The translations under genes and the position numbers were made by a program. Positions 1 through 24,695 of a DNA stretch of 64,000 nucleotides are shown here, one piece after another (positions within the stretch are counted from its first letter, which is position 1; each line of letters opens with the position of its first letter). Origin of the DNA: Roridomyces roridus (Eukaryota > Basidiomycota > Agaricomycetes > Agaricales > Mycenaceae); NCBI GenBank assembly GCA_029378245.1, contig JARKIF010000016.1, positions 1-64,000 of the forward strand. Direction: 5' to 3'. Under the pieces are notes generated by a model. It had not been told where the DNA came from, made no database searches, and was given only the letters and a program-made list of their open reading frames with translations.

Positions 1-771
1 GCTCGAGGATCGCTTTCCGCCCAGGAGCGTGCGGGTCGTTCTATTGGAGTTTTTTCCGGGGAGACTCTCCGAGCTCTGCACCGCGCCCTCATGACGAGCA
101 CTGCGACTCGGAGCGGGATCTACACTTCATTTGTCTGTGACGAGCACAAGAACGCATTTGGACACAGTGCGTTTGGCGGATCCTCATCTTCATTCTCATT
201 CTTACCGGCGTCGCGCATACCGACCTCATGGACAGAAATGTCCTCCCGAAGGAGGCCCAGCCGTCGCGCACGTCATTCTGTAATTCTACGGAGTGCGCGC
301 TCCAACATAGTCTCTCCACCGAGTCATTGATCACTCAGGTCGCTACAGTCCGGCGGCGAGCCTGTCGACTATTCGAAGCTGACCCGGCAGCAAATCGATT
401 CGCTCCCCATCGCAGTGATCGATTTCGGATGTATTCGTTTGGTGGAAAACGAGGTCAAGAGGATGAATGCGACGCTACATGCACTTGCCAAGCATTTTGG
501 AACGGACGAGACTGTTGGGGAACACGAAATCACCGCAGAGCAACTCGAGAATGATTCAAGGCCAGATTCGGTCGCACGCAAGGACGAATTTCACGCATCC
601 TGGCACTGGTCTAAATGGCTTCCCAGCACTTACCATTATCTGCTGTTGAGGCGCAGGAAATTGCAGACACGTGTCGTCACTGATTCACTCCTTCCATTTT
701 CATGGGGATTATTTGACGACGGAAGATCGGGAGCCCTCGATGGACGAGACTTTGATACTTACTTTGCTTAG
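1..771 (+). pseudogene. Kinase-like family A, copy A1 (5'-truncated by window edge, degenerate)
   Basis: The DNA aligns along its length with the catalytic half of A2 and A3, including the stretch for the HxDLxxRN loop (about 210-240), the I-D-F-G segment (about 412-425) and the C-terminal W-x-W-S-K-W-L-P-S-T block (about 600-630). These parts sit in different reading frames, because several small deletions occur around 60-200 and 330-400 relative to the paralogues, so no continuous protein can be read. The 5' part lies outside the window. It faces N1 tail to tail. I infer a decayed kinase-like gene. A real gene with unusual introns is unlikely, because the frame changes fall inside conserved blocks and lack splice signals. 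Confidence 0.8.
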
Positions 772-973
772 ATGCGTCAATACAACTTGAAGCGCTTGCA
801 CAGATCACGGACTACGAGGGAGAACAGTGAAATATGCCAGGTATACATGCCTCGGCTCTTGACTATCCGCACGACGATCTCAGACTCCGGTTCAAATCAT
901 GATTGTATTGCTGAGTATACTGGCAACCACTACCCGCTCACGTCTCGCACGCTCTGCGGCTCTCCTACGTCGA

Positions 974-1919
974 CTAAACCCCCACATGCGGCAAAAACGG
1001 ACCTGGCATTGCACTCTTGATCTTTCCGTCCAATCTCTTCACTGCCTGCAAGAATGCCGCTATCACCATCTTGTGGAAAGTGAGCGCATCGGAACCGGCC
1101 GCGCTCCCGGCTGTATACAGAACTTCCGGGAAACTATTTTCATCGACATCGTCGTCGTTCCATGGAAGACCGTTGGGCTCCATATCGAGGCACATCATAT
1201 TTCCCCAATCGCATGCCAGCACGTAAGGTGTGTCGTAGGCGCTGTGGTATTTGACAAGCTGTTTCAGGAGAACTGTGGCGTTTTCACCCAATTGGACGCC
1301 GTCCGCAATTTTCTGTTCAATCGCCGCCTCCAACGCATCCTCTGGGGAAGAAATTGGCAGTATCGCCGGGTCCCAGTCGGTGTCAATGCGTATAGCACCC
1401 CTGGAATATGATCAGTACGGCGTGTTTCATTATAAAGTGCCAAACTCACCAGTTCTTCAACTCCAGCGCGAGAACATCAACACTTTTGACCTTCCATAGA
1501 ACATCCACAACGGAGGAGTGCTCTTTGGAGCGAGTGAAGCAGAAGAACTGCGAGTCGTCCTGGATCAGCCGCTTCCGCACCAGATAGCGGGCCAAAATCT
1601 GGTTGACAGTGTGTAGAAGGTAGAGGCTGATAGCTCTCTCGACATCTCCCTCTCTTTCTATCTCATGAGACGCCTCCACCATGATCGGGTCGACCTTTTG
1701 GTCTAGGACCTGCTGAAGGTTCGGGTCATCAAGAACCCGGAGGAAGGAATCGTCGTCCATGCGGATCAAGAAATCTGGCGCAGTTTGCTCTGCTGTAGAA
1801 CTGCTACTGGGCTGGAGCGGCCAATACGGCGGTGATTTTCTAGGCAAGATCGGCATTGCTGATTCAAGTAGTTCCCGTGGATCGTCTGGGAGAAGCATGT
1901 GTCGCGATTGGGAGGTCAT
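974..1919 (-). CDS. N1: PD-(D/E)XK nuclease-like protein, 298 aa, two exons
   Basis: Exon 1 is 1919-1450 and exon 2 is 1400-974; the intron runs GTGAGT to ATTCCAG. The joined frame is 298 codons. Visible nuclease-type residues are an acidic helix E-G-D-V-E-R-A, then D139, then E153-L-K155 (D-x13-E-x-K), then Q204-L-V-K-Y208 (QxxxY). This order matches RecB/lambda-exonuclease-like members of the PD-(D/E)XK superfamily. The intron lies in phase 2, one codon after the ExK motif plus one residue, at the same position as in N2 and N3. The start at 1919 is chosen because the following M-L-L-P-D-D-P-R matches the N-terminus of N2; an ATG at 1976 is also in frame. It is divergent from A2 with 651 bp between starts. 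Substrate and role are unknown; nuclease activity is inferred from motifs only. Confidence 0.85.
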
Positions 1920-2570
1920 CGTATAGGCAGTTGCAAATGGAAGATGGGAGTGTTGAACACCGAGTCGTTCAGTCACGTATCGCAGGCTTTAATAGCTAAC
2001 AGAGACAAAAGCCAACCAGTTTGGGAACAATTGGATACGAAGAACAATAGCGGTTTCTTTGATGTGCATACTTGTTGCATTTGTGCGCGCCACCCGGCGA
2101 CTCGGTGTAATGAGAATCATTGGTCGCTATCCGATTGTTGCGATGAGCATCTCGTACAACCTCACTTTTGTGTAGGGAGGCACAAATCCCCGATTGGTTC
2201 GCTACCTTGTATTTTTCTCCGCCGTGCGGTGACATCGCGCGACTCCTTGTAACTCCTTGCCACGGAGCGGCGACTTGCTATTGTTGATCATGAGTGCTGA
2301 GTCCGAATGAACAACATGCCTAATACGTGAGAACCCTGGGGAAGCCAGCTGGCGGGAGTTGAGTGTGCGATGTGAATGGTGCGTTGCAAGGTGCGCTGAC
2401 ACTAAAATTGTGATTTAATTCGGTCATCTAAACACGTGATCGTATCAATCTCTCTCTTCTCCCACCTCGTCAAACCAGCTCAGCACGAGCATCAGACTCT
2501 CAAACTCGACCAGGTACGTCAAAGGACATGTCTCTCAACTGAACATTGTTCTGATTCAGTTCATCCAGCC
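1920..2570. promoter_or_regulatory. Shared upstream region of the divergent N1/A2 pair
   Basis: This 651 bp region lies between two start codons on opposite strands. It contains CACGTGATCGT (2433-2443), which has an E-box core and is also found upstream of A3 and A4, followed by a CT-rich stretch (2449-2465). A probable 5' UTR intron of A2 spans 2514-2559 (GTACGT to CTGATTCAG). I see no coding signal in it. Bidirectional promoter function is inferred from layout. Confidence 0.6.
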
Positions 2571-3713
2571 ATGCCGCCGGTCCCTCTCCCCGATCCGTCG
2601 ACACAATATCACGAAGGCGCTGCCTTCGAGCTATATCCTGATGTGGCACCCAATCCCACGGCTGGCAAACCGGGAAACCTCAAATTTACACAAGCTGACC
2701 GTGAAATCGAGGCTCAGCCCAACGGTCGTCTCAAACACTGTGCTCAATACACTGTGCCACCTCATGCACAATATCCGAGTCACCGCATCACTTTGCGGAA
2801 GGGCCTGTCTGTCGGCCTCTCGCACTTGCGATTCGCCCAAGTCTGGATGGTCGAATGCGAGGGGCGGATCATGGTGGCTCGCTTCTACGATCCCTTGTAT
2901 GTCTCCGACGACACGGGAGCATACGATATCTTCAGGCAGAGTAACGAGCGTGTGGGTACCGAGGTGGCTGCGTATACAGCTTTAACAAAGCTCCAAGGCA
3001 CCCTCGTCCCTCGCTTCGTTGGCTATTTCTTAGCCATGGTCCCAGCTCTCGGGCTCGAGGATCACTTTCCGCCAAGGAGCGCACAGGTCGTCCTCTTGGA
3101 GTTTCTCCCCGGGGATACTCTTCGCGCTCTTGGGCCTGGACCTCATGATGGGCAGGAGGAGGACGAGAACGAGGACTGGAACCCGAAGTGGAACACACGC
3201 TTCACTTTCGTCTGCGACGAACACAAGAACGCCATTTTGGACGCAGTGCTTCTGGCGAATCACCTTCTCATTCTTCGTGGTATTCAACATAGCGACCTCA
3301 TGGACAGAAATGTTCTCCTTAAGGAGACCCCACCGTCATCCTCGGCATTCTGTTCTTCCCCGGAGTGCGCGCTGCAACACAGTCTCTCCACCGAATCACT
3401 CATCCAAAAGCTCGAATCCCAGTCTGACGGCCAGCCCGTTGACTATTCGAAGCTAACACCGCAGCAAATCGATTCGCTCCCCATTGCAGTTATCGATTTC
3501 GGATCTGTCCGTCTGGTGGAATACGAGGTCAAGAGGTTGAGCAAATCCCTAAATGCACTCTCCAAGCGTTACGGAGCCGGCCGTGATCACACACTCACCG
3601 CAAAGCATTTCGAGAACGCTTCCAGGCCAGATTCAGTTTCCTGGAAGGACAAATTTTATGAATCCTGGCGCTGGTCTAAATGGCTTCCTAGTACTCACGA
3701 CTATTTATCTTGA
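2571..3713 (+). CDS. A2: kinase-like family A protein, 380 aa, the only intact A copy
   Basis: A single uninterrupted coding exon; the start M-P-P-V-P-L-P-D-P-S-T follows a probable 5' UTR intron. The same L-P-D-P-S-T-Q-Y block begins A3 and A4, which supports this start. The fold markers of a protein-kinase/APH-type domain are visible. They are V-A-R104-F-Y-D-P-L-Y, where R sits where the beta-3 lysine is expected, then the catalytic loop H240-S-D242-L-M-D-R-N247, then I-D309-F-G311. The protein ends in S-W-R-W-S-K-W-L-P-S-T. It belongs with the expanded, poorly described kinase-like families of Agaricomycetes; the substrate is unknown. Its start faces N1. It is tail to tail with B1, with 282 bp between the stops. 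Whether it is an active kinase is uncertain because of the lysine replacement. Confidence 0.85.
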   Translation: MPPVPLPDPSTQYHEGAAFELYPDVAPNPTAGKPGNLKFTQADREIEAQPNGRLKHCAQYTVPPHAQYPSHRITLRKGLSVGLSHLRFAQVWMVECEGRIMVARFYDPLYVSDDTGAYDIFRQSNERVGTEVAAYTALTKLQGTLVPRFVGYFLAMVPALGLEDHFPPRSAQVVLLEFLPGDTLRALGPGPHDGQEEDENEDWNPKWNTRFTFVCDEHKNAILDAVLLANHLLILRGIQHSDLMDRNVLLKETPPSSSAFCSSPECALQHSLSTESLIQKLESQSDGQPVDYSKLTPQQIDSLPIAVIDFGSVRLVEYEVKRLSKSLNALSKRYGAGRDHTLTAKHFENASRPDSVSWKDKFYESWRWSKWLPSTHDYLS

Positions 3714-3995
3714 CCCAAGGGAGTGGCGAGATCCTGCGATACATCCTGGCTGGGATAGTACTTTTAATCATATTATGGATGCACGATCTTCACTGAACGA
3801 TTGAATCGAATACTAGGGAGTACTTAGTAGGGCAAATTCTATCGCCTGAGATCCACTCTGTGTGTGGCTTTTTTGATCGCTGTCTCATCGTTTCAAACTT
3901 CAAAAGTCGAAAGCTCCGAGAGCGATCCGATTTTGAACTGCAGTGATTTCGGAAACATTTATTAGACAAATGTGCGAACATACAGGCCACTAGGG
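3714..3995. other. Convergent intergenic region A2/B1
   Basis: This 282 bp region holds the 3' ends of the convergent A2 and B1 transcripts. It is moderately AT-rich with no open frame of note and no repeat that I can see. Confidence 0.5.
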
Positions 3996-5009
3996 CTACG
4001 AGAACCAATACTTAGAGAACCACCCGGGTCCATTCTCGAGGAGGTCATAATCGCCGTCGGCATTTGGCGGCAAATACCACTTGGGACCAATGTCCACATG
4101 TTCAAAGTCGATGATGGCGATAGGTGAGGGTATGGTCGGGTGAAGCTCCCGTAAAAGCGTCGCCGGCGTCTGCCAGCGTAGCTTGCACGATAAATCGTGG
4201 CAAAAGGGCTCCTTTGAAGGTGGCCCCACCTTGAGAATTGTGTTCCTCTCGGCGAGGTCCTGGTGCCAAATCTGACGGCGTGCCAACTCGCGATCCGCGA
4301 TGCAACCGCTGCGTCGTACGGCCGCCCTGTGAGAAGCGCAGATAGACCACTCGGAGCTGTGGCGGAGATCTTCGCCCGGAATGTACTGCAAGAGTGTGAC
4401 GAACACGCTTCTCTTCTCGGGGATGGGAACCGAGGGCGGCTGTGGTGTGGGGTGTGCCCAACGGGTGGGGGGATAGTCCTCCGGAATGGTGTCGATAATG
4501 GTTAGGAAGCACCCGATGTACCGCGGGACGAGGTTGCCTTGCAAATCTTTAAGCAACTCGTATGACTTGTACTCCTTGACCAGTGACCTCGCGCAAAAGA
4601 GGAAGATGTCATAGAACCCGTCGTCCTCGACATACAACGGGTCGTAGATGCGCGCGACGTACGTTTGGTCTCCGGATTGCACTTTCCACACTTCAGGAAA
4701 GGGCGGGTCCTTCTCCCGACTGGCCGCGGTCAGTGGCTCTATGAGCTTTATCTGGAGAGTAGCGGATCCGGGCAGCGGTGTGACAAAGTGGTTTCCGCAA
4801 TTGCTCAAGCGACCATAGAGGTTTCGTTCGAGAGCCATGCCTTTGGCATCGAGCATGTTTTCTCTGTGCTCTGCGAGAGTGGCGCTTTCGAGAGGAGGCG
4901 GGTGCTCGTGCAGTGTTAATATCCTATCTTTCTGGTAGGTGTTGGACGCTGGTGGCACCGGTGGCACCCGCATGAACATCGTATCAGGGTCCGCTCTTTC
5001 GAAGTCCAT
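3996..5009 (-). CDS. B1: kinase-like family B protein, 337 aa
   Basis: One exon, 337 codons, the same length as B2 (8164-9177) and close to it in sequence along the whole length. Kinase-type markers are V-A-R120-I-Y-D-P-L-Y (Arg at the beta-3 Lys position, as in family A), the loop H249-Q-D251-L-A-E-R-N256, and I-I-D301-F-E303, where the DFG glycine is replaced by Glu. The N-terminus carries a proline-rich P-P-V-P-P-A-S-N-T-Y block. Families A and B share Y-D-P-L-Y-V and G-N/T-L-V-P-R-F/Y but diverge elsewhere. The gene is divergent from N2 (431 bp between starts) and convergent with A2. The catalytic Asp and Asn are kept, so phosphotransfer or ATP binding is possible. The substrate is not known. 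Confidence 0.85.
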   Translation of the reverse strand: MDFERADPDTMFMRVPPVPPASNTYQKDRILTLHEHPPPLESATLAEHRENMLDAKGMALERNLYGRLSNCGNHFVTPLPGSATLQIKLIEPLTAASREKDPPFPEVWKVQSGDQTYVARIYDPLYVEDDGFYDIFLFCARSLVKEYKSYELLKDLQGNLVPRYIGCFLTIIDTIPEDYPPTRWAHPTPQPPSVPIPEKRSVFVTLLQYIPGEDLRHSSEWSICASHRAAVRRSGCIADRELARRQIWHQDLAERNTILKVGPPSKEPFCHDLSCKLRWQTPATLLRELHPTIPSPIAIIDFEHVDIGPKWYLPPNADGDYDLLENGPGWFSKYWFS

Positions 5010-5440
5010 ATCTTCCTCGCAAGCGCGTCAGATGGCAGGTTTCCTCTCCAAGGCTGAAGAACTTACGGGTGAGAATCGTCTGAATCTCAGTTGTTCGGCG
5101 TGGCGTCTGTGTGGATGTTGTTGTGTACAGACGTGCGTCGTGCGAAGATGATCACTGTACTACATACGTGCCGTAAAGCATTCCCTTGAATCAACCTTCG
5201 AACAATAGAGCACTCAACTTGGAACAATTGTGTCTTCTTCTCGATAAGCGACAAGTTCGGCGTTTCAGTTTTTCTGCATGGCTTGTTCTCAATCCAACCT
5301 TACAATAACGTCCAATCCTGTTAGTTCCAGGTTATCGTGCGGCGGTGAAGGCTGGAGATCCGTACTCTTTCGTGGGCGACCAAGAGCATGTATAAAAGGT
5401 GCTGCACACGGTGAGGCTCCCAGTAGAGGCACCTCCTCAG
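5010..5440. promoter_or_regulatory. Shared upstream region of the divergent B1/N2 pair, TATA box for N2
   Basis: 431 bp between opposite start codons. A TATA box (TATAAAA, 5391-5397) lies 44 bp before the N2 ATG; the equivalent box occurs 40 bp before the N3 ATG. The stretches around 5220-5400 and 9380-9610 look related (GGAACAATTG-like, CTTCTCGATA/GCGC and GTGCGGCGG blocks), so the two B/N promoters probably came from one duplication. Confidence 0.6.
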
Positions 5441-6338
5441 ATGAAGACCATCACCGGCAGAGACCTCCTCAAACCTGATCCGCGCATACGCCCGGACGCA
5501 CGACTGCCTGGGAAGGGCACCGGGGAGGACATCGGCTACAGCAGCAGCTCAACAGCACTCGAGCCCATTCCTGTCGGCCTTTTGCGGCTCGATATGAGTC
5601 GTTTCGGGGCCCTGCTCGACAAGGAAGCTATGCAAACCGTGCTCGACAAAAGTTACCCTGATATCACCCTCGAGCGGACGCACCACCTCAATCTCGAAGG
5701 CGACATAGAACGTGCCTTAAACCTCTATATAGTCCACCCCGTGAACCTCATGTTTGAGGACTATCTTGACCGTGAGGGTGCGCCCAAACGGCGCATCTTG
5801 ACTTGCAAATCTCAAGTGACGGACAAACACAAGGGCTCTGTGCGGGTGGATATGGTCTGGTTCGTCGACAAGAAGGCAATCCTTGCGATGGAGGTCAAAA
5901 GAAGGTATGCATGTTTTCTGACCTCACGGCGGGGCGCTCACCCATGCGAACAGTCGTGCCATCCGCATGCATGAGTGGAGGGCTGCTCTGCCACCGGGCT
6001 ATACCTTGCAACAGCAAGAACAACGGCTACATGCCTTGGTGCAAACTGAGCGAGCGTCGGCTGCGCAGCGGGGAATCCATGATTTCAAATCTCTGATTTG
6101 TGGAAACGCGGAGAAAATCATGAGGCAAGTTCACAAGTATTTCAGACGTTACGATGCTCCGAATGCCCTCGTCTTTGACTGGAGCCACATGATTCTCCTG
6201 GATTTGAAACCGGGGGACACGACCATTCCACAGATTCACCCAGCAGATGGCGACGTGGACTGGACTTTCCGCAAGCTCCTCTTGGTTGCGCTGCTTGACG
6301 GACTGACCAGAGTCTGGAAGGATGAGGACGAGGCCTGA
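5441..6338 (+). CDS. N2: PD-(D/E)XK nuclease-like protein, 282 aa, two exons
   Basis: Exon 1 is 5441-5904 and exon 2 is 5954-6338; the 49-nt intron has a GTATGC donor and an acceptor ending CGAACAG. The joined protein is 282 aa, exactly as long as N3. The nuclease-type residues are E-G-D-I-E-R-A-L, D137, E151-V-K153 and Q213-V-H-K-Y217. The intron follows the ExK motif in phase 2 as in N1 and N3. After the splice a conserved A-I-R-x(3)-E-W-x(2)-A-L-P-P segment follows. No signal peptide or membrane segment is seen, so the protein is probably intracellular. It is divergent from B1. From position 5841 onward the gene is duplicated at 10,741 (N4). The biochemical role is inferred from motifs; DNA or RNA as target cannot be decided. 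Confidence 0.87.
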
Positions 6339-6770
6339 TAATCGCAGAAAGCAATGGCGGTCAATTGTCAGCAGCGGATTGGGCTCGGGAAATGCACAAG
6401 AAATATAACAGAATTTTTTTTGTAGAAAATGCAACGAAAATGTCGACGAACGGGGAATTTGATTTGTCAGCTTGTGAAAATCGAGAGGGAAAACGCGAGA
6501 AGAATGAATCAAATCTGCGATGATCGTGTGTCCGTGCTGTTCAAGCAGGTGACCGCTTTTATCACGCATAGATTATGCAACTACAAGCACGTGATCGTCA
6601 TCCAACTCGCTCTCTCTCCTTCTCTCTCTCTTCAACTCGTTGTAGTCACTTGTCAACTCTCTCTCTCTCGTGTCAGAGCAACTCAGACTCAGACTCTCAA
6701 AGTGGACCAGGTCGGAGGAACCACAAACTTCTGGCCGTGTTTGAGCCAGTTGTCTAGGTTGCAGGCACCG
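6339..6770 (+). promoter_or_regulatory. N2-A3 intergenic region with conserved motif and 5' UTR intron of A3
   Basis: 432 bp, almost identical to 11,850-12,130 plus 13,300-13,424 in the duplicated block. It holds CACGTGATCGT at 6588-6598, then a long CT-rich tract (about 6605-6670). A probable 47-nt 5' UTR intron at 6711-6757 (GTCGGA to GTCTAG) is placed as in A2. Confidence 0.55.
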
Positions 6771-7945
6771 ATGTCCGAACTCATTCCTCTCCCCGATCCG
6801 TCGACACAATATGGCGTAGGCGCCGCATTCGAGCTATTCGCACATGTGGCACCCCCTCCTAAAGAGGACGGCTCTGGACGCGTGAAGTTCACAAAGGCTG
6901 ACTGTGTGGCAGTTGAGTCTCAGCCTGACGGTCGTCTCCAACACTGTTCTCAATACACGGTGCAACCCCACTCAAAATATCCTTCACACCAAATCATTCT
7001 GCGGAAGGGCCTTTCTATTGGCCTGTCGCACCTGCGATTTGCTCAAGTGTGGATGGTCGAATGCGACGGGCGGACTATGGTCGCTCGGTTCTACGATCCA
7101 TTGTATGTCTTCGACGACACGGGAGCATACGACATCTTTCTGCAGACTAGGGAGCGGGTGGGCACCGAGGTGGCGGCCTATACAGCTCTCTCCAGGTTCC
7201 AGGGCTCCCTCATCCCTCGCTTCGTCGGCTGTTTCCTGGCCATGGTCTCGGCTCCACCCGGGCTCGAGGATCGCTTTCCGCCCAGGAGCGTAGAGATCGT
7301 TCTATTGGAGTTTTTCCCTGGGGAGAGTCTTCGCGCTCTTGGGGCGGGTCAAGATGAGAAGGACGAGGACGAGGACTGCGACCCGCAGCGGGACATACAC
7401 TTTACTTTCGTCTGCGACGAACACAAGACCGCAATTTTGGACGCAGTGCGTCTAGCGGATCACCTTTTCATTCTCAGTGGTGTTCATCATATCGACCTCA
7501 AGGACAGAAATGTCCTCCTCAAGGAGACTCTCCCTTCGCACACGGCATTTTGTTCCTCTGCGGAGTGCGCGCTGCAACACAGGCTTTCCGCCGAATCGTT
7601 GATCACTCAGCTCGCATCCCAGTCCGGCGGCGAGCCCGTCGAGTCGTCGACTATTCGGTGTTGACTCGGCAGCAAATTGATTCGATCCCCGTCGCAGTCA
7701 TTGATTTTGGATCTGTTCATCTGGTGGAACACGAGATCAAGAGGCTGAACAAAATGGTAACTGCGTTTGTCGAACGTTTTGCCAGCGATGGTGAACACGC
7801 GCCCCTTGAACCCACAATCACTGCAGCGCGTCTCGAGAATAATTCCAGGCCAGATTCAGAGGCGTGCCAGGAGAAGTTTCACAGATCCTGGCGATGGTCG
7901 AAATGGCTCCCTAGCACTCACGACTATCTTATGTCGAACAGGTGA
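6771..7945 (+). pseudogene. A3: kinase-like family A gene with an 8-bp frameshifting insertion
   Basis: Starts M-S-E-L-I-P-L-P-D-P-S-T and reads without a stop through the kinase loop (H-I-D-L-K-D-R-N at about 7490-7515). At 7643-7650 eight extra bases are present relative to A2 and A4, and the frame then ends at 7664. The rest, including I-D-F-G-S and the terminal R-W-S-K-W-L-P-S-T block, continues in another frame to 7945. If translated it would lose the DFG segment and C-lobe. The extra eight bases nearly repeat the preceding eight (CCCGTCGA then GTCGTCGA), which resembles a transposon excision footprint. The gene lies downstream of N2 on the same strand and is convergent with B2. It is not divergently paired with a nuclease gene. 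Confidence 0.8.
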
Positions 7946-8163
7946 GGAGCCTTTGATGGGAGTGGCACCATTTTTTTTTTTGCAATATGTGCTTTGTACT
8001 TCACCAGTAATAATGATCCGATCCAAATCTATAGCGGGAGTGCTCCGTACCTTCTACCCTATTCCACATTTTTGTCGCTCTCATTCTCATGTTGAATCTC
8101 GCTGATTCGATTTTGGAAAGTGTTTAAGTCGCCCAAAAAAAAATGCAAACAAACGACGTGGCA

Positions 8164-9177
8164 CTACGAGAACCAGTACTTGGACAACCACCGTGGTCCT
8201 TTCTCGTTGAGATCATAATCGCCGTCGGCGTTTGGCGGCGGACAATTTTTGCCTATGTCTGTATCCTCCATGTCTATGATGGTGATTGGGGAGGGTATGC
8301 TCGGATGAAGTTCGCGTAAAAGCGTCGTGGGCGTCTGCCAGCGTAGCTTGCACGATACATCGTCGCAGAAAGGCTCCTGCGAAGGTGACCCGGCCTTGAG
8401 AATCGTGTTCCTCTCGGCGAGGTCGTAGTGCCAAATGCGGCGGCGAAGAAACTCGCGCCCCGCGATACAGGCACTGCGCCGTATGACCGCTTTGTGAGGA
8501 GCGCAGATAGACCACTCGGAGCTGTGGCGAAGATCTTCGCCCGGGATGTACTGCAAGAGAGTGACGAAGACGCTTCGCTTCTCGGGGATGGGTACGGAGG
8601 GCGGCAGTGGCGTGCGATGCATCCAACGGATGGAAGGATAGTCCTCCGGAACGGTGTCGATAATGCTCAAGAAGCATCCGATGTACCGCGGGACGAGATT
8701 GCCTTGCACATCTTTGAGCAACTCGTATGCCTTGTACTCGTTGACCAGAGACCGTGCGCAAAAGAGGAAAATATCATAGAATCCCTCGTCGTCCTCGACA
8801 TACAAGGGGTCGTAGATGCGCGCGACGTACGTTTGCTCTCCGCATTGCACTTTCCACACTTCAGGAAAGGGCGGGTCCTTGTGGCGACTGGCAGTGGACA
8901 GCGGCTCGACGAGCTTTATTTGGAGAGTAGTGGATCCGGGCAGCGGAGCGACAAAATGGTTGCCGCAATTGCTGAGGCGACCGTGGAGCTTTCGTTCGAG
9001 AATCATGCCCTTGGCATCGAGCATGTTTTCTCTTTGCTCTGCGAGGGCAGCGCTGTCGAAAGGAGGCGGGTGTTCATGGAGTGTAAAAATCCTATTTTCC
9101 CGGTACGTATTGGACGCCGGTGGCACCGGTGGCACCGGCAGGAACATTGTAGTGAGATCTGCTCTGTCGTAGTCCAT
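8164..9177 (-). CDS. B2: kinase-like family B protein, 337 aa
   Basis: A full-length paralogue of B1 (same 337-codon length, conserved throughout). It carries the V-A-R-I-Y-D-P-L-Y segment, the loop H-Y-D-L-A-E-R-N and I-I-D-M-E in place of D-F-G, so both Phe and Gly of that motif are changed. The catalytic loop Asp and Asn are intact. It ends S-K-Y-W-F-S like B1. It is divergent from N3 (470 bp between starts) and convergent with A3 (218 bp between stops). A role together with the neighbouring nuclease-like protein is inferred from the repeated arrangement; the biochemical function is unknown. Confidence 0.85.
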   Translation of the reverse strand: MDYDRADLTTMFLPVPPVPPASNTYRENRIFTLHEHPPPFDSAALAEQRENMLDAKGMILERKLHGRLSNCGNHFVAPLPGSTTLQIKLVEPLSTASRHKDPPFPEVWKVQCGEQTYVARIYDPLYVEDDEGFYDIFLFCARSLVNEYKAYELLKDVQGNLVPRYIGCFLSIIDTVPEDYPSIRWMHRTPLPPSVPIPEKRSVFVTLLQYIPGEDLRHSSEWSICAPHKAVIRRSACIAGREFLRRRIWHYDLAERNTILKAGSPSQEPFCDDVSCKLRWQTPTTLLRELHPSIPSPITIIDMEDTDIGKNCPPPNADGDYDLNEKGPRWLSKYWFS

Positions 9178-9647
9178 ACCTGCCTCGCAAGTATGTCAGG
9201 GTGGTTGCTTATTCAAGGCTGAAGAAATTACTACAGATAAATAATCTTCTGGAATCGTTCGTGGCGTCTTGTGCGGATGGTGGTCAAGCTCAAGTGCGTT
9301 GTTATGTAAAGACGCAACGAACATGATCTGATGTTCCCGATTTCCGTTTGGGTGCCACGATCCCTTGAATCTGGAACAATGGAGGGATCAATTTGGAACA
9401 GCTAGGCTGTTCTTCTCGATGCGCAAAGAAGTTCGCGGCGCTTCGGTTTTTCTGTTTGACTTGTTCTTTATCCGGACTACAATAACATTGATGTTGGTTG
9501 AACGTCTATTGTGCGGCGGCGGAAGACCGAGATCCGTACTCTGTCATCCGTGGCAGCGAACCTTTGTAACCTGTGCACGGAATCGGACATAGCTCGTTGC
9601 CTATAAAAGTGCTGCCCCGTGTTCCTCAGTAAACACCCACTGCCAAG
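9178..9647. promoter_or_regulatory. Shared upstream region of the divergent B2/N3 pair, TATA box for N3
   Basis: 470 bp between opposite starts, with TATAAAA at 9602-9608, 40 bp before the N3 ATG. It shares blocks with the B1/N2 intergenic region. No coding signal is seen. Confidence 0.6.
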
Positions 9648-10548
9648 ATGGCCCTGGCTTCGAACTTTATCCGCGCAGACGTGCTTCTCACTCCTAATCT
9701 AGACATACGCCCGGACGCAATCCTGCGGGGGGTGGGGAATGACCCCCCCATCACCTACAGCGGCTTTTCGACCTCGAGGCAGCGCATCGCTGAGGGCCTT
9801 TTAAACCTCGATATGAATCGTTTGGCGGCCTTGTTCAACAATGGATCTGTGACAACTTTTCTGCAGTCCTCTGAATCCTCCTACCCTGTGCCCACTGTCG
9901 AGCGCACGCACAAAATCGACATCGAAGGGGACGTGGAGCGTGCACTGCACCTCTATCTGGTCAACCCCGTGAACCTCATCTTTGAGGACTATCTTCGCCG
10001 CCCAAGTGTACGACCTGGGCAGTCCTTGACTTGCAAATGTCAAGTCACGCAGGAGAAAGGCATGCCCTGGTCGCGCGTGGATATGCTCTGGTATGTCGCC
10101 AATAAAGTTATCCTCGCTATGGAAGTCAAAAGAAAGTCAGCATTTCTCTATTGTATGTCACGCTGGGGCACTCATCCATTGAAAAAGTGATGCGATTCGC
10201 CCGTATGAGTGGAACGATGCTCTTCCACCGAACTCTGCAGGCCTCACTCTGCAGCAGCAAGTGCAACAGCTGCAACAGGTGGTGAACTTGGAAAAACAGC
10301 AGGGGGATTTTGTTTCTCTGATTTTCGGAAAAGCGGAGAAAATTATGAGGCAGGTTACCAAGTATTTCACGGCGTTCAAGCCGCCCAACATCCTCATCTT
10401 TGACTGGAACAACATGATTCTCCTCGATATCAAGTCGGCGCCCAGCTCTGGTGATTTTCCACACATGTCCCAGACGGATGGGAGTGGTTACTGGACTTTC
10501 CGCCGAATGCTCTTAGCTGCGTTGATCGACGGGCTCAACAGAGCATGA
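9648..10548 (+). CDS. N3: PD-(D/E)XK nuclease-like protein, 282 aa, two exons
   Basis: Exon 1 is 9648-10135 and exon 2 is 10188-10548 (52-nt intron, GTCAGC to GAAAAAG), giving 282 aa. Motifs are E-G-D-V-E-R-A-L, D145, E159-V-K161 and Q218-V-T-K-Y222, with the same D-x13-E-x-K spacing as N1 and N2. The intron sits at the same phase-2 position. The splice was chosen because it restores the conserved A-I-R-P-Y-E-W-x(2)-A-L-P-P segment in frame. A Gln-rich helix (L-Q-Q-Q-V-Q-Q-L-Q-Q) follows. It is divergent from B2. It is the last intact gene before the duplicated, transposon-ridden block. Confidence 0.86.
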
Positions 10549-10740: not shown

Positions 10741-10872
10741 TGCGTGGATATGGTCTGGTTCGTCGACAAGAAGGCAATCCTTGCGATGGAGGTCAAAAGA
10801 AGGTATGCATGTTTTCTGACCTCACGGCGGGGCGCTCACCCATGCGAACAGTCGTGCCATCCGCATGCATGA

Positions 10873-11224
10873 TGTCGGAAAAAGCCGTTTTTGATTATAA
10901 TCCAATTATAATCAATTATACACCGATTATAAACAAATAATATCATAATCAAAACAGCCTTTTATAATTGAATTATAATTGAGGAGAATCTACGAACAAG
11001 TGGGCTGGATTTCCCAATCTCGGTGGTAATCTGGTTCACTGAGGCTGCTGTGTGACCTGTGCACTTCCTGGATACAGCGTGACGTGACCAGCATGTCCCC
11101 AGCGCAGTTTGATTGATTGTTGGCTTTCTCGCATGTTGATCAAAATTGATCACAATCTATTACAATCGCTTATCATCCCATAATAGCCACGTCCAATTAT
11201 AATTCGGATCACGTTTTTCCGACA
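10873..11224. mobile_element. MITE-1: 352-bp AT-rich element, 11-bp TIRs, 2-bp GA target duplication
   Basis: The ends are TGTCGGAAAAA and its inverted complement TTTTTCCGACA. The element is flanked by GA on both sides; N2 has a single GA at the same place (CATGAGTGG), which defines the insertion exactly. The interior is AT-rich, with repeated TTATAATT/AATTATAA palindromes near both ends and no coding capacity. The superfamily is not clear; a 2-bp duplication would fit Tc1/mariner, but TA is normally the target there. Confidence 0.85.
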
Positions 11225-11262
11225 GAGTGGAGGGCTGCTCTGCCACCGGGCTATACCTTGCA

Positions 11263-11518
11263 CACAGGGGGGAACCTCACTGTTCCGCACAGCGGGAATT
11301 TTATATTTCCGCAGTATTTCCGCATGATTTCCGCAACATTTCCGCGTGGCGGAAATGTGTTGATTTCATTACATAATCATAAGATTCTCTGCTAAATTGG
11401 CAGATTTTGATTTTTATCACCTATTTTCGGAGCTGGCGGAAATGTTGCGGAAATACTGCGGAAATGTTGCGTAAATAAAGTATTTCCGCGGTGCGGAAAA
11501 GATGCCTTCCCCCCTGTG
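11263..11518. mobile_element. MITE-2: 256-bp CACTA-like element, 12-bp TIRs, 3-bp GCA target duplication
   Basis: The ends are CACAGGGGGGAA and TTCCCCCCTGTG, flanked by a duplicated GCA that occurs once in N2. A CAC terminus with a 3-bp duplication is the pattern of CACTA (EnSpm) elements. The interior is full of TTCCGC in the left part and GCGGAA in the right part, so the whole element can fold back. No coding capacity, so non-autonomous. Confidence 0.85.
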
Positions 11519-11849
11519 GCAACAGCAAGAACAACGGCTACATGCCTTGGTGCAAACTGAGCGAGCGTCGGCTGCGCAGCGGGGAATCCATGATTTCAAA
11601 TCTCTGATTTGTGGAAATGCGGAGAAAATCATGAGGCAAGTTCACAAGTATTTCAGACGTTACGATGCTCCGAATGCCCTCGTCTTTGACTGGAGCCACA
11701 TGATTCTCCTGGATTTGAAACCGGGGGACACGACCATTCCACAGATTCACCCAGCGGATGGCGACGTGGACTGGACTTTCCGCAAGCTCCTCTTGGTTGC
11801 GCTGCTTGACGGACTGACCAGAGTCTGGAAGGATGAGGCCGAGGCCTGA

Positions 11850-12138: not shown

Positions 12139-13290
12139 GCAAAACATGTTATTACCGCCGACATCCGTTGAATCAGCGCGAGCTCAGAGGGCGTTGAATT
12201 GACCCAACTTTTTCGGAGACTCAAAGAGTTGAATTCCCCCTACTTTTCCCCATCACGAATATTGGTTTGCCTCAAGTTTGCCTCCATCTACTTGTTGAAT
12301 CTGTATATTGTTCACATTGAAATGCCTCAACTTTTTATTTCGGCCAAATTTCATTCCCATTGAATTAGCTTCTCAGTGTGTTGACTTGCCGATACCAATC
12401 CGATGAAGTGGCCAAGACTTCCTTCTTGAAATTGCGTCCAGTCTCTCAACAAATGTATTGAAGTATCCCTTGTTCACGAGCGAACACATCTTGTTGAATC
12501 ACCACCATTTCCTTCCCGCCTACCTAACTTGTTGAAATGGCACCTGTTTTTCGTTAGAGGATCCTCTTGAATTACCATATCTTTTCCACCGGTATCTAAT
12601 TGAACTGACCTACCTTTCAGGTCCACAATCACAGACCAGCATCTCCTCGTCCTCAAGTAGATGGACAACAGAGAAGTGCAGAGTGTTGCCTTTGTCCTTT
12701 CTTGTTTAAGTTATCAACCCCCAACAAATCGTCTCGGGTGGGGGCTTGGCCATGGCAAGATACGCAGGGTGGAGCTCGGATTGTAGGCAGGAAAAGTGAG
12801 GGTGTTTCAATAAGATTCCGCGGAGGAAGAAAACCTGGGTTGATTCAATAGGTAGTATACCTGCCCGAATGTGAGGGTAATTCAGCACAGTTCCTCAGGA
12901 CTGCATGTCTGTTTCAATTGCAACCCGTGAGGAAAAGTTGGGGTAAATCAACAGGTATACCGCAGAAAGTTGGGACAATCCAATAGGCGCCAAATTTTGC
13001 CAGGCGGCAATTCAACAGCGGTGAATTGGCAATTCAACCGACCTTGAACCGGCCTGTCAAAGGGTCCCGAGAGACGTGCAGAAAAACCTAGGTTCATTCA
13101 ACAGATGTGCCGCGAGGGTTCAACAAGGATGCGAAGCGAAGGCAAGGTGTTTCAACAGATTGATGTCGGTGTTTCAATCACTTCCTTCCACCGAAAGTTG
13201 GGGTCCATTCAACAGAAAAAGTCGGGGTGATTCAGAACTTTCGGAATGCGGTCTGATTCAACAGATGGCGGCGGTAATAACATATTTTCG
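12139..13290. mobile_element. MITE-3: 1152-bp MULE-like element, 38-bp imperfect TIRs, 9-bp target duplication
   Basis: TTTTCAACT flanks the element on both sides (12,130-12,138 and 13,291-13,299); the equivalent site before A3 has it once (TCTTCAACT). The TIRs share TGTTATTACCGCCG and GTTGAATCAG, with five mismatches over 38 positions. Nine-bp duplications with long TIRs are typical of Mutator-like elements. Inside, the left half is rich in GTTGAAT/TTGAAT units and the right half in ATTCAAC/ATTCAACAG units, with the switch near 12,715. The element is therefore one large degenerate palindrome. No transposase frame. Confidence 0.85.
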
Positions 13291-13424: not shown

Positions 13425-15227
13425 ATGTCCGAACTCATTCCTCTCCCCGATCCGTCGACACAATATGGCGTAGGCGCCACATTCGAGCTATTCGCACATG
13501 TGGCACCCCCTCCTAAAGAGGACGGCTCTGGACGCGTGAAGTTCACAAAGGCTGACTGTGCAGTTGAGTCTCAGCCTGACGGTCGTCTCCAACACTGTTC
13601 TCAATACACGGTGCAACCCCACTCAAAATATCCTTCACACCAAATCATTCTGCGGAAGGGCCTTTCTATTGGCCTGTCGCACCTGCGATTTGCTCAAGTG
13701 TGGATGGTCGAATGCGACGGGCGGACTATGCTCGCTCGTTTCTACGATCCACTGTATGTCCTCGACGACACAGGAGCATACAACATCTTCCTGCAGACTA
13801 ACGAGCGCGTGGAAACCGAGGTGGCAGCGTATACAGCTCTGTCCCGGTTCCAGGGATCCCTCATCCCTCGCTTCTTCGGTTACTTCTTAGCCATGGTCCC
13901 AGCTCCCCCCGGGCTCGAGGATCGCTTTCCGCCCAGGAGTGTGCAGGTCGTGCTCTTGGAGTTTTTCCCTGGGGAGAGTCTTCGCGCTCTTGGGGCGGGT
14001 CAAGATGAGAAGGACGAGGACGAGGACTGCGACCCGCAGCGGGACATACACTTTACTTTCGTCTGCGACGAACACAAGACCGCAATTTTGGACGCAGTGC
14101 GCCTAGCGAATCACCTTTTCATTCTCAGCGGTGTTCAGCATATCGACCTCTTGGACAGAAATGTGCTCCTCAAGGAGACTCGCCCGTCGCATACAGCATT
14201 CTGCTCTTCTGCGGAATGTGCGCTGCAACACAGGCTCTGCACCGAGTCGTTGATCACTCAGCTCGCATCCCAGTCCGGCGCCGAGCCCGTCGACTATTCG
14301 GTGCTGACTCTGCAGCAAATTGATTCGCTCCCCATCTAGTGATGGGTGGGTCCGGTTCAAAGAAACAGTTCGAACGTGAACCGAACTGAACCGAACGCCC
14401 GTTCAGCGTTCAGGTTCGGTAAATTGCTGAACCTGAACGCAAAGTTCGGTTCGGCGTTCGGGCGGGAGTGGGCGCGTTCGAACGCAAACGCAAAATTGAA
14501 CCGAAAGTCGCCATTCTTGAGACTTGGACTGCAATTTCAAGCTGATTACCAGCTGGAGACTCAACAGATTAGTGAAACCACTCGCACAGTCACCTTTAAT
14601 GCAACCAAAACCCAGGTCAGAGACTGGTGGGTCGGCGCTGGCTGTCTGATCAGTATTGATGGTGCATCAGAGCGGTGCGAGTCGGATTGCACAGACGTTG
14701 TGCATGTATAATTGCACTGGGTGACTAGTCCGTGTTAGTTAGTGCTTCCATAACCACATTTGAAGCTCATCTTACCCCGAAGTTGGCGTAGATTATCACC
14801 GGGAAAATCCGGGGTTCGAACGCGTTCGAACGCCGAACTGAACGCGAACGCGCGTTCAGGTTCAAGGTTCGGGAGTTCACTGAACCGAACGCTGCGTTCA
14901 CGTTCGGCGTTCAGCAAAAAGGTGTCCGAACGCGAACCGAACCGGACCGACCCATCACTATCCCCATCGCAGTCATTGATTTTGGGTCTGTTCATCTGGT
15001 GGAACACGAGATGAAGAGGTTGAACCAAATGGTAAATACGTTCGTTGCGTTACAGTGTTGCTACCGACGGTGAACACGTGCCCCTTGAACTCGCATTCAC
15101 TGCAACGCATTTCGATCACAAATCCTGGCCAGATTCAGAGGAGTGCAAGGACCAGTTTTACAGATCCTGGCGATGGTCTAAATGGCTTCCTAGCACTCAC
15201 GACTATTTACTGTCGACGCGCAGGTGA
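13425..15227 (+). pseudogene. A4: kinase-like family A copy split by a hAT-type element and frameshifted
   Basis: Near-identical to A3 from M-S-E-L-I-P-L-P-D-P-S-T onward, but without the A3 8-bp insertion and lacking one Val codon near 13,560. The frame runs through the loop H-I-D-L-L-D-R-N and stops at 14,339, inside an element inserted at 14,337. The coding sequence resumes at 14,961 with the I-D-F-G-S segment. A 2-nt deletion near 15,050 then shifts the frame before the terminal R-W-S-K-W-L-P-S-T block. Its upstream region carries the MULE-like insertion. No functional product is expected, although a truncated protein to 14,339 could be made. Confidence 0.87.
14337..14960. mobile_element. 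MITE-4: 624-bp hAT-like element, 22-bp TIRs, 8-bp target duplication
   Basis: TCCCCATC is duplicated (14,329-14,336 and 14,961-14,968) and single in A2 and A3. The TIRs begin TAGTGATGGGT and match over 22 positions with one mismatch. An 8-bp duplication and TAGTG-type ends are the hAT pattern. Both subterminal regions (about 14,350-14,500 and 14,815-14,945) are dense in GTTCGG/CCGAAC units, plausibly transposase-binding repeats; the middle is unique sequence with no transposase. Confidence 0.9.
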
Positions 15228-15408
15228 GCATACTATACCACTTTGAAATGGACCATCATGCACGAGTTGAGCGCCTTCCGGCCCACCAGCCCCGAAGATC
15301 CTAAATACATATAGATTTCCAGCAGATACATAACGGTACACATGTAGTACATCCGCGGTGCTCAAGTACAAAACAAGATACAGCAAAAAGTCCCTCAGAG
15401 ACCCATCC

Positions 15409-22925: not shown

Positions 22926-22979
22926 ATGACGTGAACGGTCCGGTGACCGTACCCAGCTCTTTCTGTTTCTCCCATCCTC

Positions 22980-24233
22980 ATGGTGTCCATACCCCAGCTC
23001 CGCGAGGACCTCGAGTCGCTGGAAAGAGAGATTGAACGCCAGAAAGAGGTCCTCAGCGACCTCGAAAAGCAGCGTAGCGACGTCCAGAGCGAATTAAACT
23101 CCCTTATCGACCCCATCGCTCGGCTGCCGCCAGAGATTTTCTCTGACATCCTACTCAAGTCCCTTCCGATTCCTCCCACTTGGAGTTCCCTGGTCACTCT
23201 CCTGCTCGTGTGTCGTGCATGGAGCGCGCTTGCTCTCGCCACTCCCTCTTTGTGGAGCACCATCACCGACGAAGGGACGCCGAGAAATCAATTTGCAGGA
23301 TTGGCACAGAAGTGGCTCAGTCGCGCGCCGGGCGTCCCGATCTCGGTGATCTTTCGTCGCGACAACCTTTCGAGGTTCGCGCTCGAAGAATTCGAGGCTC
23401 TCGAAGTATATGCACCTCGAATTCAAAATATGTACCTCCACACCCTGTACAATGACAGTCTGGAAGGCATTGCCCGCTTTGGTGCTTTGCGCTCTTTAAC
23501 TGTCCGGTTCGCTGAAGAAGTTCCACCGGATCTCATCCTCGATTTCCTGCATGCTGCACCAAACCTTGTGAAACTCGAAATGCAAACCGTCGACTCTGAG
23601 CCGGTGCATGAGCCGGTGCCGGGGACAAGGCGCTTGACCCATAGCAGCCTGGAGCACCTGTGTTTCGGACGATGGGAAGAATATTATGCCCATTTTTCCG
23701 AGACCTCGATTCTGCCGCTTTTCACATTGCCCGCCCTCCGATCCCTGCTCATCTCTCTGGATCGAATCAGCGAGACCGACCTGCATGAATTTCTGTGGCG
23801 GTCTTCTCCACCCTTGCGTCATCTAGGCATACAGTTCAGGGTGGAGGATCTCCAGAGCCCAACGATTATATCGTGCCTCCAGCTCGTCCCTACCCTTACG
23901 GACCTCCAGATTCTTCTAGCTTTCACATCGAGTGGCTGGGGCCCGCCAGAGTCTTCCTTCGACCTATTGACTGCCACCCCGAATCTTCTTCCGGCCCTAC
24001 GAAATGTCGCAATCGAAGAAATGTTCAATCACGGGCCGGACCTATGTGGGCGCGTCGTCAGTTTCCTCGAAAACCGAACCTCGTCATTCCAATCCCTTGA
24101 GCTCATTGTTCCGGCAGTGGACGAGGATTTGTTTGACGATGCCACGTTAGCGGCTTTACGGGTGTTCGTAGGCAGAGGGGTATACGTGCACATTGGACCG
24201 CTGTCGACGAACTTCTTGAGCGCATCTACCTAG
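22980..24233 (+). CDS. F-box protein, 417 aa (tandem copy 1)
   Basis: Single exon. The N-terminal coiled coil (L-E-S-L-E-R-E-I-E-R-Q-K-E-V-L) is followed by an F-box-like stretch (I-A-R-L-P-P-E-I-F-S-D-I-L-L, then C-R-A-W-S-A-L-A-L-A-T-P-S-L-W-S) and a Leu-rich C-terminal region. It is closely related to the next gene over its whole length, including 60 bp upstream of the ATG, so the two come from a tandem duplication. A role as an SCF substrate adaptor is known for the family and inferred here. Confidence 0.87.
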   Translation: MVSIPQLREDLESLEREIERQKEVLSDLEKQRSDVQSELNSLIDPIARLPPEIFSDILLKSLPIPPTWSSLVTLLLVCRAWSALALATPSLWSTITDEGTPRNQFAGLAQKWLSRAPGVPISVIFRRDNLSRFALEEFEALEVYAPRIQNMYLHTLYNDSLEGIARFGALRSLTVRFAEEVPPDLILDFLHAAPNLVKLEMQTVDSEPVHEPVPGTRRLTHSSLEHLCFGRWEEYYAHFSETSILPLFTLPALRSLLISLDRISETDLHEFLWRSSPPLRHLGIQFRVEDLQSPTIISCLQLVPTLTDLQILLAFTSSGWGPPESSFDLLTATPNLLPALRNVAIEEMFNHGPDLCGRVVSFLENRTSSFQSLELIVPAVDEDLFDDATLAALRVFVGRGVYVHIGPLSTNFLSAST

Positions 24234-24695
24234 ACCCAGGGTACACTCTAAAATATGTTCCGTACCGTCTACGTATGCTTTGTGGAATCCATTTGCTACA
24301 TATCCATTCGAAAATTTCAAGTATGGGCTCGCCTCCGACCACATCATGATCTTCTTTCAAGTTCTTGCTTGTTTCCTGCATCTGCATCCACTCTGGCGGC
24401 TATGCCTCTTCTCGATTTGCCTCTTGAACTTGAGCTTCGACCGCAACAAGACCTGAGTGGGCAGCGTCGGAGTTCATGCCTTTGATTTTCTCCGGTACAC
24501 TAATTGTCAGTGAGATCTGAGAGACCGTGAGGCTCGGCACTACACGACGCACCAATGCAGAACAGCCCACTCTCCCACTTACGATTCACTCCAGTTCTGG
24601 TCCACCGCCAGGGCATATTGGCTGGGATACTTCTGGAGATGACGTTACGGTCCGGTGACCGTCGTTCTCCCGCTCTTCCTGTATCTCTCATACTC

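Follow-up and report, generated by a model that had tools for sequence, protein, structure and literature searches.

Gene content and layout of the cluster

The analysed window is a stretch of 64,000 nucleotides from Roridomyces roridus, and its beginning is occupied by a dense cluster of genes of two types: N genes, which encode PD-(D/E)XK nuclease-like proteins, and A and B genes, which encode kinase-like proteins. Three N genes stand head to head with a kinase-like gene (N1/A2, B1/N2 and B2/N3), the distance between the two start codons being 651, 431 and 470 bp, respectively; gene models and spacing were confirmed for window positions 974–10548. The window and contig C68 begin inside A1, the remnant of an A-type gene (1–642, plus strand) that carries frameshifts on both haplotypes. 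It is followed by N1 (974–1919, minus strand; 298 aa; intron 1401–1449), for which the NCBI model (P0006) is shorter than the one presented here, by the first divergent intergenic region (1920–2570, 651 bp; GAACAAT at 2025, 2042 and 2545) and by A2 (2571–3713, plus strand; 380 aa). The second pair consists of B1 (3996–5009, minus strand; 337 aa), an intergenic region of 431 bp (5010–5440; GAACAAT at 5200 and 5222) and N2 (5441–6338, plus strand; 282 aa; intron 5905–5953), which, as spliced here, shows 100% identity to NCBI protein P0001 over the length of N2. A3 (6771–7945, plus strand) lies in tandem after N2, and A2 is the only one of the four A-type genes that is placed head to head with an N gene. 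The third pair comprises B2 (8164–9177, minus strand; 337 aa), an intergenic region of 470 bp (9178–9647; GAACAAT at 9374) and N3 (9648–10548, plus strand; 282 aa; intron 10136–10187).

The cluster is wider than first annotated, since it also includes the A1 remnant, a 5'-truncated copy of N2 starting from about residue 136 (N4; 10744–11849, plus strand; two short inserts) and a broken A-type gene, A4 (13425–15228, plus strand), which is a recent duplicate of A3 (93% identical DNA across 1,046 aligned bases). In the 90.8-Mb assembly, all returned A/B or N matches at E ≤ 0.001 were located in the cluster or on contigs C453, C242 and C419, which match the cluster almost exactly. Inspection of splice signals by eye raises the suspicion of a 5' UTR intron before the A and B starts.

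Relationships of the A/B and N proteins

The kinase-like character attributed to A and B in the first-pass annotation was borne out by kinase-fold similarity, but the two groups, described there as unrelated families occupying the same position, are one family: a search with B2 found A2 (E 4e-29), the reciprocal search with A2 found B2 (E 4e-28), and A and B proteins can be aligned together (six-row alignment). Residues E147, H250, D252, N257 and D302 are invariant in the A/B alignment, and the position of the β3 lysine is occupied by arginine (Arg120) in 9/9 rows, some of which are alleles of each other; the catalytic residues of protein kinases at these positions are β3 Lys, αC Glu, HxD, Asn and metal-binding Asp. 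The invariant arginine at the β3 position makes kinase activity of the A/B proteins doubtful. A search with B2 alone against PDB sequences matched no kinase. The A/B proteins also share a conserved set of C-x2-H plus C-x4-C.

B homologues are present in Mycena vulgaris and M. filopes (P0004, P0005); the searches found no N homologue in these two species or in any other. The family PF17667 (Pkinase_fungal), the FunK1 fungal kinases, also belongs to the kinase fold and is abundant in the R. roridus genome, with 101 matching pieces, but no such piece falls on a contig of the cluster, and the PF17667 profile gave no match at E ≤ 10 with the A and B proteins tested. A simple pattern search for a Crinkler header, an LFLAK-like or HVLV motif, was negative for all A, B and N proteins tested.

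The N proteins had been annotated as nuclease-like, and this assignment holds for the motif in all three of them and, in comparison with a matrix derived from bacterial HsdR, for N2 and N3, with weaker evidence for N1. D-x13-E-x-K followed by QxxKY is found in 3/3 N proteins (N1, N2 and N3), the residues in N2 being D137, E151, K153, Q213 and Y217. In the matrix scan, N2 and N3 ranked first and second among 436 ORFs; the N1 score of 7.5 is not outstanding and is lower than those of five unrelated ORFs. The similarity between N and the catalytic block of HsdR, the subunit of type I restriction systems (Pfam HSDR_N), is gapless across 21 residues, including D-x13-E-x-K, and QxxxY is present in most HsdR rows. 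The Pfam HSDR_N match of N reached 13.7 bits, under the cut-off of 25.1 bits, hhalign gave no match between N and HsdR, and a search of the genome for the PF04313 family returned no match. The predicted N model was of poor quality (pLDDT 42.8), with a helix, three strands and helices in order, and gave no useful structure match. Taken at the level of motifs, the data support an HsdR-like PD-(D/E)XK core with QxxxY in the N proteins. Unlike in type I restriction, no helicase, HsdM or HsdS partner occurs among the ORFs examined.

Duplication history and allelic decay

B1–N2 and B2–N3 represent a single 2.44-kb tandem duplication (72.5% identity), and their intergenic DNA can be aligned as well (63% identity). 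The three divergent pairs, separated by 431–651 bp, that had been reported earlier thus stand as regards layout and spacing, but their count was overstated, since two of them are products of one event and there are at most two independent arrangements. Simple arithmetic gives a chance of 1/4 for two divergent arrangements out of two, if the neighbouring kinase gene may point either way; head-to-head orientation by itself is weak evidence. No similarity of the N1/A2 intergenic region to the other two divergent regions was detectable, so this region lends no support to a single ancestral divergent pair, and the dS values, which are higher for N2/N3 (0.58–1.00) than for B1/B2 (0.34–0.56), fit poorly with one simple joint duplication.

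It is a fair possibility, though less likely than not, that N and A/B are functionally independent families sharing one tandem-duplication hotspot, the head-to-head layout being a by-product of duplicated blocks. The single event behind B1/N2 and B2/N3 is consistent with this explanation, as are the promoters of A2 and A3, which are alike even though A3 forms no divergent pair with an N gene, and the unlikeness of the N1/A2 region to the other two, k-mers common to all three divergent regions being in no excess over shuffles. A distantly related kinase array on contigs C498/C90 points in the same direction, since no N-like ORF was found by eye or by matrix scan within 10 kb around each. Such independence would not readily explain the occurrence of both families at only one place in 90.8 Mb, the fusion of the same domain pair in SPOK and Crinkler-type proteins, as far as their published descriptions go, or the clustering of GAACAAT, 6 of whose 15 copies in the window fall in the three divergent regions, a pattern noticed post hoc. 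If the pairing is incidental, the locus would still be a clear example of a gene cluster heavily hit by transposons, so far known from a single species, in which one partner evolves fast and the other slowly.

Several genes are intact on both haplotypes and nearly identical between them: N1 shows no differences (946/946 bases), the N2 alleles have 3 differences in 898 bases and the A2 alleles 2 in 1143. Other genes are decayed. A1, A3, A4 and N4 are broken in the window, where the frameshifted A3 is 11 bp longer than the intact allele of the other haplotype, and the inserts of N4 (at about 10873–11224 and 11258–11519) are missing from the other haplotype. The genes broken on the latter, which is represented by contigs C453 and C242, are A1, A4 (cut in the third codon by about 4.3 kb), B1 (a 344-bp insertion and a frameshift), B2 (cut by a 2.6-kb insert carrying reverse-transcriptase-like frames) and N3 (interrupted by a DNA transposon). 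The cluster has received insertions of several transposons.

The number of broken genes would suit a relic cluster, in which once-functional genes are in decay and have been kept by chance, but this is rather unlikely, given that both haplotypes retain intact copies of N1, N2 and A2 and that B1/B2, A2/A3 and N2/N3 all have omega values well under 1. It is improbable, too, that the cluster serves in allorecognition (heterokaryon incompatibility) or as a conflict locus, where a mismatch between allelic or paralogous N and kinase-like proteins would lead to cell damage. The haplotypes do differ by several gene-breaking insertions within the cluster, and N evolves faster than its kinase-like partners; at the same time, the surviving alleles are near-identical across haplotypes, whereas recognition alleles kept in balance for a long time would show the opposite, and no recognition domain was matched in the cluster proteins.

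Comparison with SPOK and Crinkler-type proteins and a possible role of the cluster

Judging by its published description, SPOK is the closest analogue of the cluster. The SPOK spore killers of Podospora and Fusarium, whose killing and resistance have been shown (PMC6660238, PMC9972908, PMC12693581), are described as single proteins in which an HsdR-like nuclease domain kills and a kinase domain protects (PMC6660238). The features that SPOK, so described, has in common with the cluster include an HsdR-like PD-(D/E)XK nuclease with QxxxY (the distance from the lysine to the Gln is 54 in SPOK3 and 49, 60 and 57 in N1, N2 and N3), a kinase-like part retaining the catalytic Asp, several duplicated copies, one of them broken and with a transposon, and a 5' UTR intron, which in the cluster is merely suspected. 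In contrast to the separate nuclease and kinase genes of the cluster, SPOK is one polypeptide, and according to the same descriptions it has an N-terminal coiled coil, and its kinase part is preceded by a C-x3-C-x13-C-x5-H-x7-H cluster; the latter pattern, strict or relaxed, was absent in A2, A3 (intact allele), B1, B2 and P0002–P0005.

In Crinkler-type REase–kinase proteins, as described in PMC5289972, a REase-superfamily domain thought to be toxic is fused to a protein kinase domain thought to be regulatory. The same combination occurs here on separate genes. It is very improbable that the cluster encodes effectors of the Crinkler type, or an anti-transposon system descended from such effectors, whose nuclease and kinase would act independently of each other; among Crinkler-type C-termini, about one in six is reported to be of the REase–kinase kind (PMC5289972), which favours such an origin, while the separate genes and the missing header patterns argue against it.

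Our best guess, offered tentatively and by analogy, is a two-gene version of a SPOK-like system, composed of a nuclease toxin (N) and a kinase-fold antidote or regulator (A/B). The cluster consists of two types of gene that have undergone tandem duplication, and on this reading N may act as a DNA-cutting toxin and the neighbouring A/B protein may restrain it, possibly by phosphorylation of N or its target or, because the β3 lysine is replaced by arginine, by binding N. We infer that N may be catalytic and toxic and that it may be in contact with A/B proteins, with spore killing, allorecognition or defence as conceivable outcomes. The suggestion that the pairs act together gains from the fusion of the same two domains, with a toxic nuclease, in SPOK and Crinkler-type proteins, so far as these are described (PMC6660238, PMC9972908, PMC5289972), and loses from the other haplotype, where B1 and B2 are both broken beside an intact N2; consequently, B does not act as a strict antidote to N2, unless its place is taken by A2 or A3. 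The more specific proposal, a two-gene killer-meiotic-drive or toxin–antidote system that would correspond to an unfused SPOK and whose A- and B-type antidotes would be interchangeable across haplotypes, seems unlikely.

No characterised driver in Agaricomycetes was evident in the literature searched, as judged by titles, and the SPOK-like reading, if true, would extend SPOK-type conflict systems to this group. How SPOK acts as poison and antidote at once is called unresolved in passages of PMC6660238 and PMC12693581; a natural split version would make it possible to express, remove and combine each activity freely.

Layout and duplication history of the cluster

Reading from left to right, the cluster in the window (bases 1–64,000 of contig C68 of Roridomyces roridus; Mycenaceae, Agaricomycetes) comprises the A1 remnant (+), N1 (−), A2 (+), B1 (−), N2 (+), A3 (+, frameshifted), B2 (−), N3 (+), the N4 fragment (+) and A4 (+, broken), where N denotes nuclease-like and A and B kinase-like genes. 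The start-codon spacings that the first-pass annotation had given for the head-to-head pairs were borne out (N1/A2, 651 bp; B1/N2, 431 bp; B2/N3, 470 bp). N1, N2 and N3 each contain one intron, at or just 3′ of the ExK codons, and encode proteins of 298, 282 and 282 aa after splicing; an NCBI protein from R. roridus, encoded on a contig of 1.30 Mb, is identical to N2. The window also contains, at 22947–25922, two adjoining ORFs of 428 and 463 aa, similar to each other, which by eye resemble F-box-type proteins and are probably tandem duplicates.

The co-location of N and A/B genes exceeds chance, since matches to them at E ≤ 0.001 were found nowhere in the 90.8 Mb assembly but in this cluster and in contigs that match it almost exactly, as judged by a search scoring only the best first-look candidates; weaker kinase matches (E 0.011 to 0.84) lie on contigs C498, C90, C138 and C469. 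Head-to-head orientation is much weaker evidence than co-location. B1-N2 and B2-N3 are one duplicated block (72.5% over 2,444 bp), which takes in the intergenic DNA (63% identity between B1/N2 and B2/N3). The N1/A2 intergenic region showed no similarity to the other two divergent regions, with local scores at the shuffle mean, and the A2 promoter resembles that of A3 (score reached in 0 of 200 shuffles), a gene not head to head with any N. Six of the 15 window copies of GAACAAT fall in the three divergent regions, which together span 1.55 kb (2025–2048, 2545–2551, 5200–5228 and 9374–9380), a clustering noticed post hoc that may hint at shared control and is taken as a lead; the 7- to 10-mers shared among these regions, taken together, showed no excess over shuffles.

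Nei–Gojobori estimates with bootstrap ranges, made with the intact A3 allele for A2/A3, gave dS 0.45 (0.34–0.56) and omega 0.24 for B1/B2, dS 0.52 (0.42–0.67) and omega 0.34 for A2/A3, and dS 0.75 (0.58–1.00) and omega 0.48 for N2/N3; N evolves fastest, and the N, A and B pairs are all under constraint. For dS, the ranges of N and A overlap and those of N and B are disjoint, a result that either weakens the case for a single, simple duplication of B with N or points to later conversion between the B copies. For the deeper paralogues, synonymous sites are saturated; their dN values (0.73 for N1-N2, 0.70 for A2-B1) are compatible with, but no proof of, an ancient duplication of a paired N and kinase gene. 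The two Mycena homologues branch between the A and B proteins in a tree of seven proteins (weak support, 0.77), so that A and B may have diverged at about the time of the split from Mycena.

Features of the N and kinase-like proteins

The N proteins are probably nucleases of the HsdR type. HSDR_N was the sole Pfam family to appear, for N2 alone and weakly (E 0.056, below the cut-off). All three proteins contain D-x13-E-x-K followed by Q-x2-K-Y, the distance from the lysine to the glutamine being 49 to 60 residues. None of the 148 window ORFs with a length of 120 aa or more has this strict pattern (the ORFs were read unspliced, which excludes N itself from the count); among 5000 shuffles per protein it arose 0 times for N1, 0 for N2 and once for N3. 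A looser pattern occurred in one of the 148 ORFs and in 0.7 to 1.6% of shuffles. A 21-column matrix was built from the eight equally spaced rows of a ten-row HsdR sample (one from E. coli K-12 and nine from plasmid records, these taken out of 24 rows listed). Its best window coincides with the D..ExK site in each N protein, and, of the 436 ORFs that reach 100 aa in the window and in stretches L055–L059, it places N2 first and N3 second; the score was reached by 0 (N2), 1 (N3) and 55 (N1) of 3000 shuffles. The N1 score (7.5) lies under those of five unrelated ORFs, and its assignment therefore depends on its being homologous to N2 and N3. One helix (86–111), three strands (120–153) and further helices are predicted in an order that fits the core, in a poor model (pLDDT 42.8); structure searches with this low-confidence model gave no usable match, and hhalign of the three N proteins against the ten HsdR rows yielded no alignment. 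Given the positive motif and matrix results, the poor model and the null hhalign result, we consider the catalytic signature good and the nuclease fold predicted only.

The A/B proteins have conserved C-x2-H and C-x4-C motifs (B2 residues 225–228 and 271–276), the second of them flanked by the catalytic loop and the metal-binding Asp; they may form a metal site within an unusual insert of the kinase. Tandem arrays of another, distantly related kinase-like family, which retains the beta-3 lysine, are present on C498 (L055, 85001–95000) and C90 (L056, 341001–351000); they are largely alike, perhaps alleles, and no N-like ORF was found in these two stretches.

Comparison with fused nuclease-kinase proteins

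SPOK3 is described as having a PD-(D/E)XK domain with a QxxxY motif and HsdR as the best HHPred match; its killing requires this domain and is abolished by K240A, and resistance requires a kinase-like domain preceded by a Cys-His cluster, the D667A allele being toxic (PMC6660238). SPOK is reported to cause DNA disruption in E. coli, lost on mutation of the nuclease domain, and genotoxic stress in yeast (PMC9972908); some Fusarium homologues reportedly have toxin and antidote activity, the nuclease-kinase architecture being described as widespread (PMC12693581). About a sixth of Crinkler-type C-termini are reported to couple REase and kinase, with the REase likely the toxic part (PMC5289972). 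The cluster shares these two parts, nuclease and kinase, but has them on separate, adjacent genes. For this reason the most economical reading, which we put forward tentatively, is that N would act as a nuclease toxin and the adjoining gene would supply its kinase-fold partner. Identification of the cluster with SPOK itself was rejected: there is no nuclease-kinase fusion, and the SPOK Cys-His cluster was looked for and is absent from the A/B proteins searched.

Protein searches recovered homologues of the kinase-like proteins from two Mycena species, but N from R. roridus only, as one protein among 2046 candidates scored and, in a further search, two among 7995; since N changes fast, a word-based search would miss distant homologues. 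Among the titles listed in the literature searches, in part the best 20 of 72 and 20 of 27 papers, none dealt with a two-gene nuclease-kinase system in fungi.

A second haplotype of the cluster

The assembly contains a second version of the cluster on contigs C453 (281,367 bases), inverted relative to window 1–9996 with pieces at 98.4 to 99.4%, and C242, which continues it from window 9991. Because their ends are matching inverted repeats, the two contigs appear to flank a single transposon insertion in N3; they presumably come from one nucleus. On this haplotype the transposon cuts N3, 344 bp have been inserted into B1, which is also frameshifted, 2.6 kb into B2 and about 4.3 kb into A4 (at its third codon), and A1 carries frameshifts. 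Intact here are N1, identical to the window copy, N2 with 3 differences over 898 bases, A2 with 2 over 1143, and A3. The B2 insert (C453, 10035–12647) contains reverse-transcriptase-like frames, as judged by eye, and NCBI predicts a shortened kinase (P0002) at this allele despite it.

On the window haplotype A1, A3, A4 and N4 are broken and N1–N3, A2, B1 and B2 intact. The pattern on both haplotypes therefore rejects a strict dependence of N2 on B1, the other haplotype having an intact N2 and a broken B1. On both, each intact N is adjoined by an intact kinase gene; this is only suggestive of a link, because the same numbers of losses dealt at random leave every intact N with an intact kinase neighbour in 0.14 of cases. 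That two duplicating families are neighbours incidentally is a rival explanation, which we rank close behind the reading as a toxin and its partner.

Terminal inverted repeats bound three inserts that C242 lacks, at window 10873–11224 (TGTCGGAAAAA ends), 11258–11519 (CACAGGGGGG ends) and 12141–13288 (a 1.15-kb element whose arms measure 74 bases). The genome has many PF17667 (FunK1-type) kinases (101 matching pieces); among these matches small contigs repeat large ones, e.g., C190 and C1 with equal scores, and allelic contigs thus seem more widespread in the assembly.
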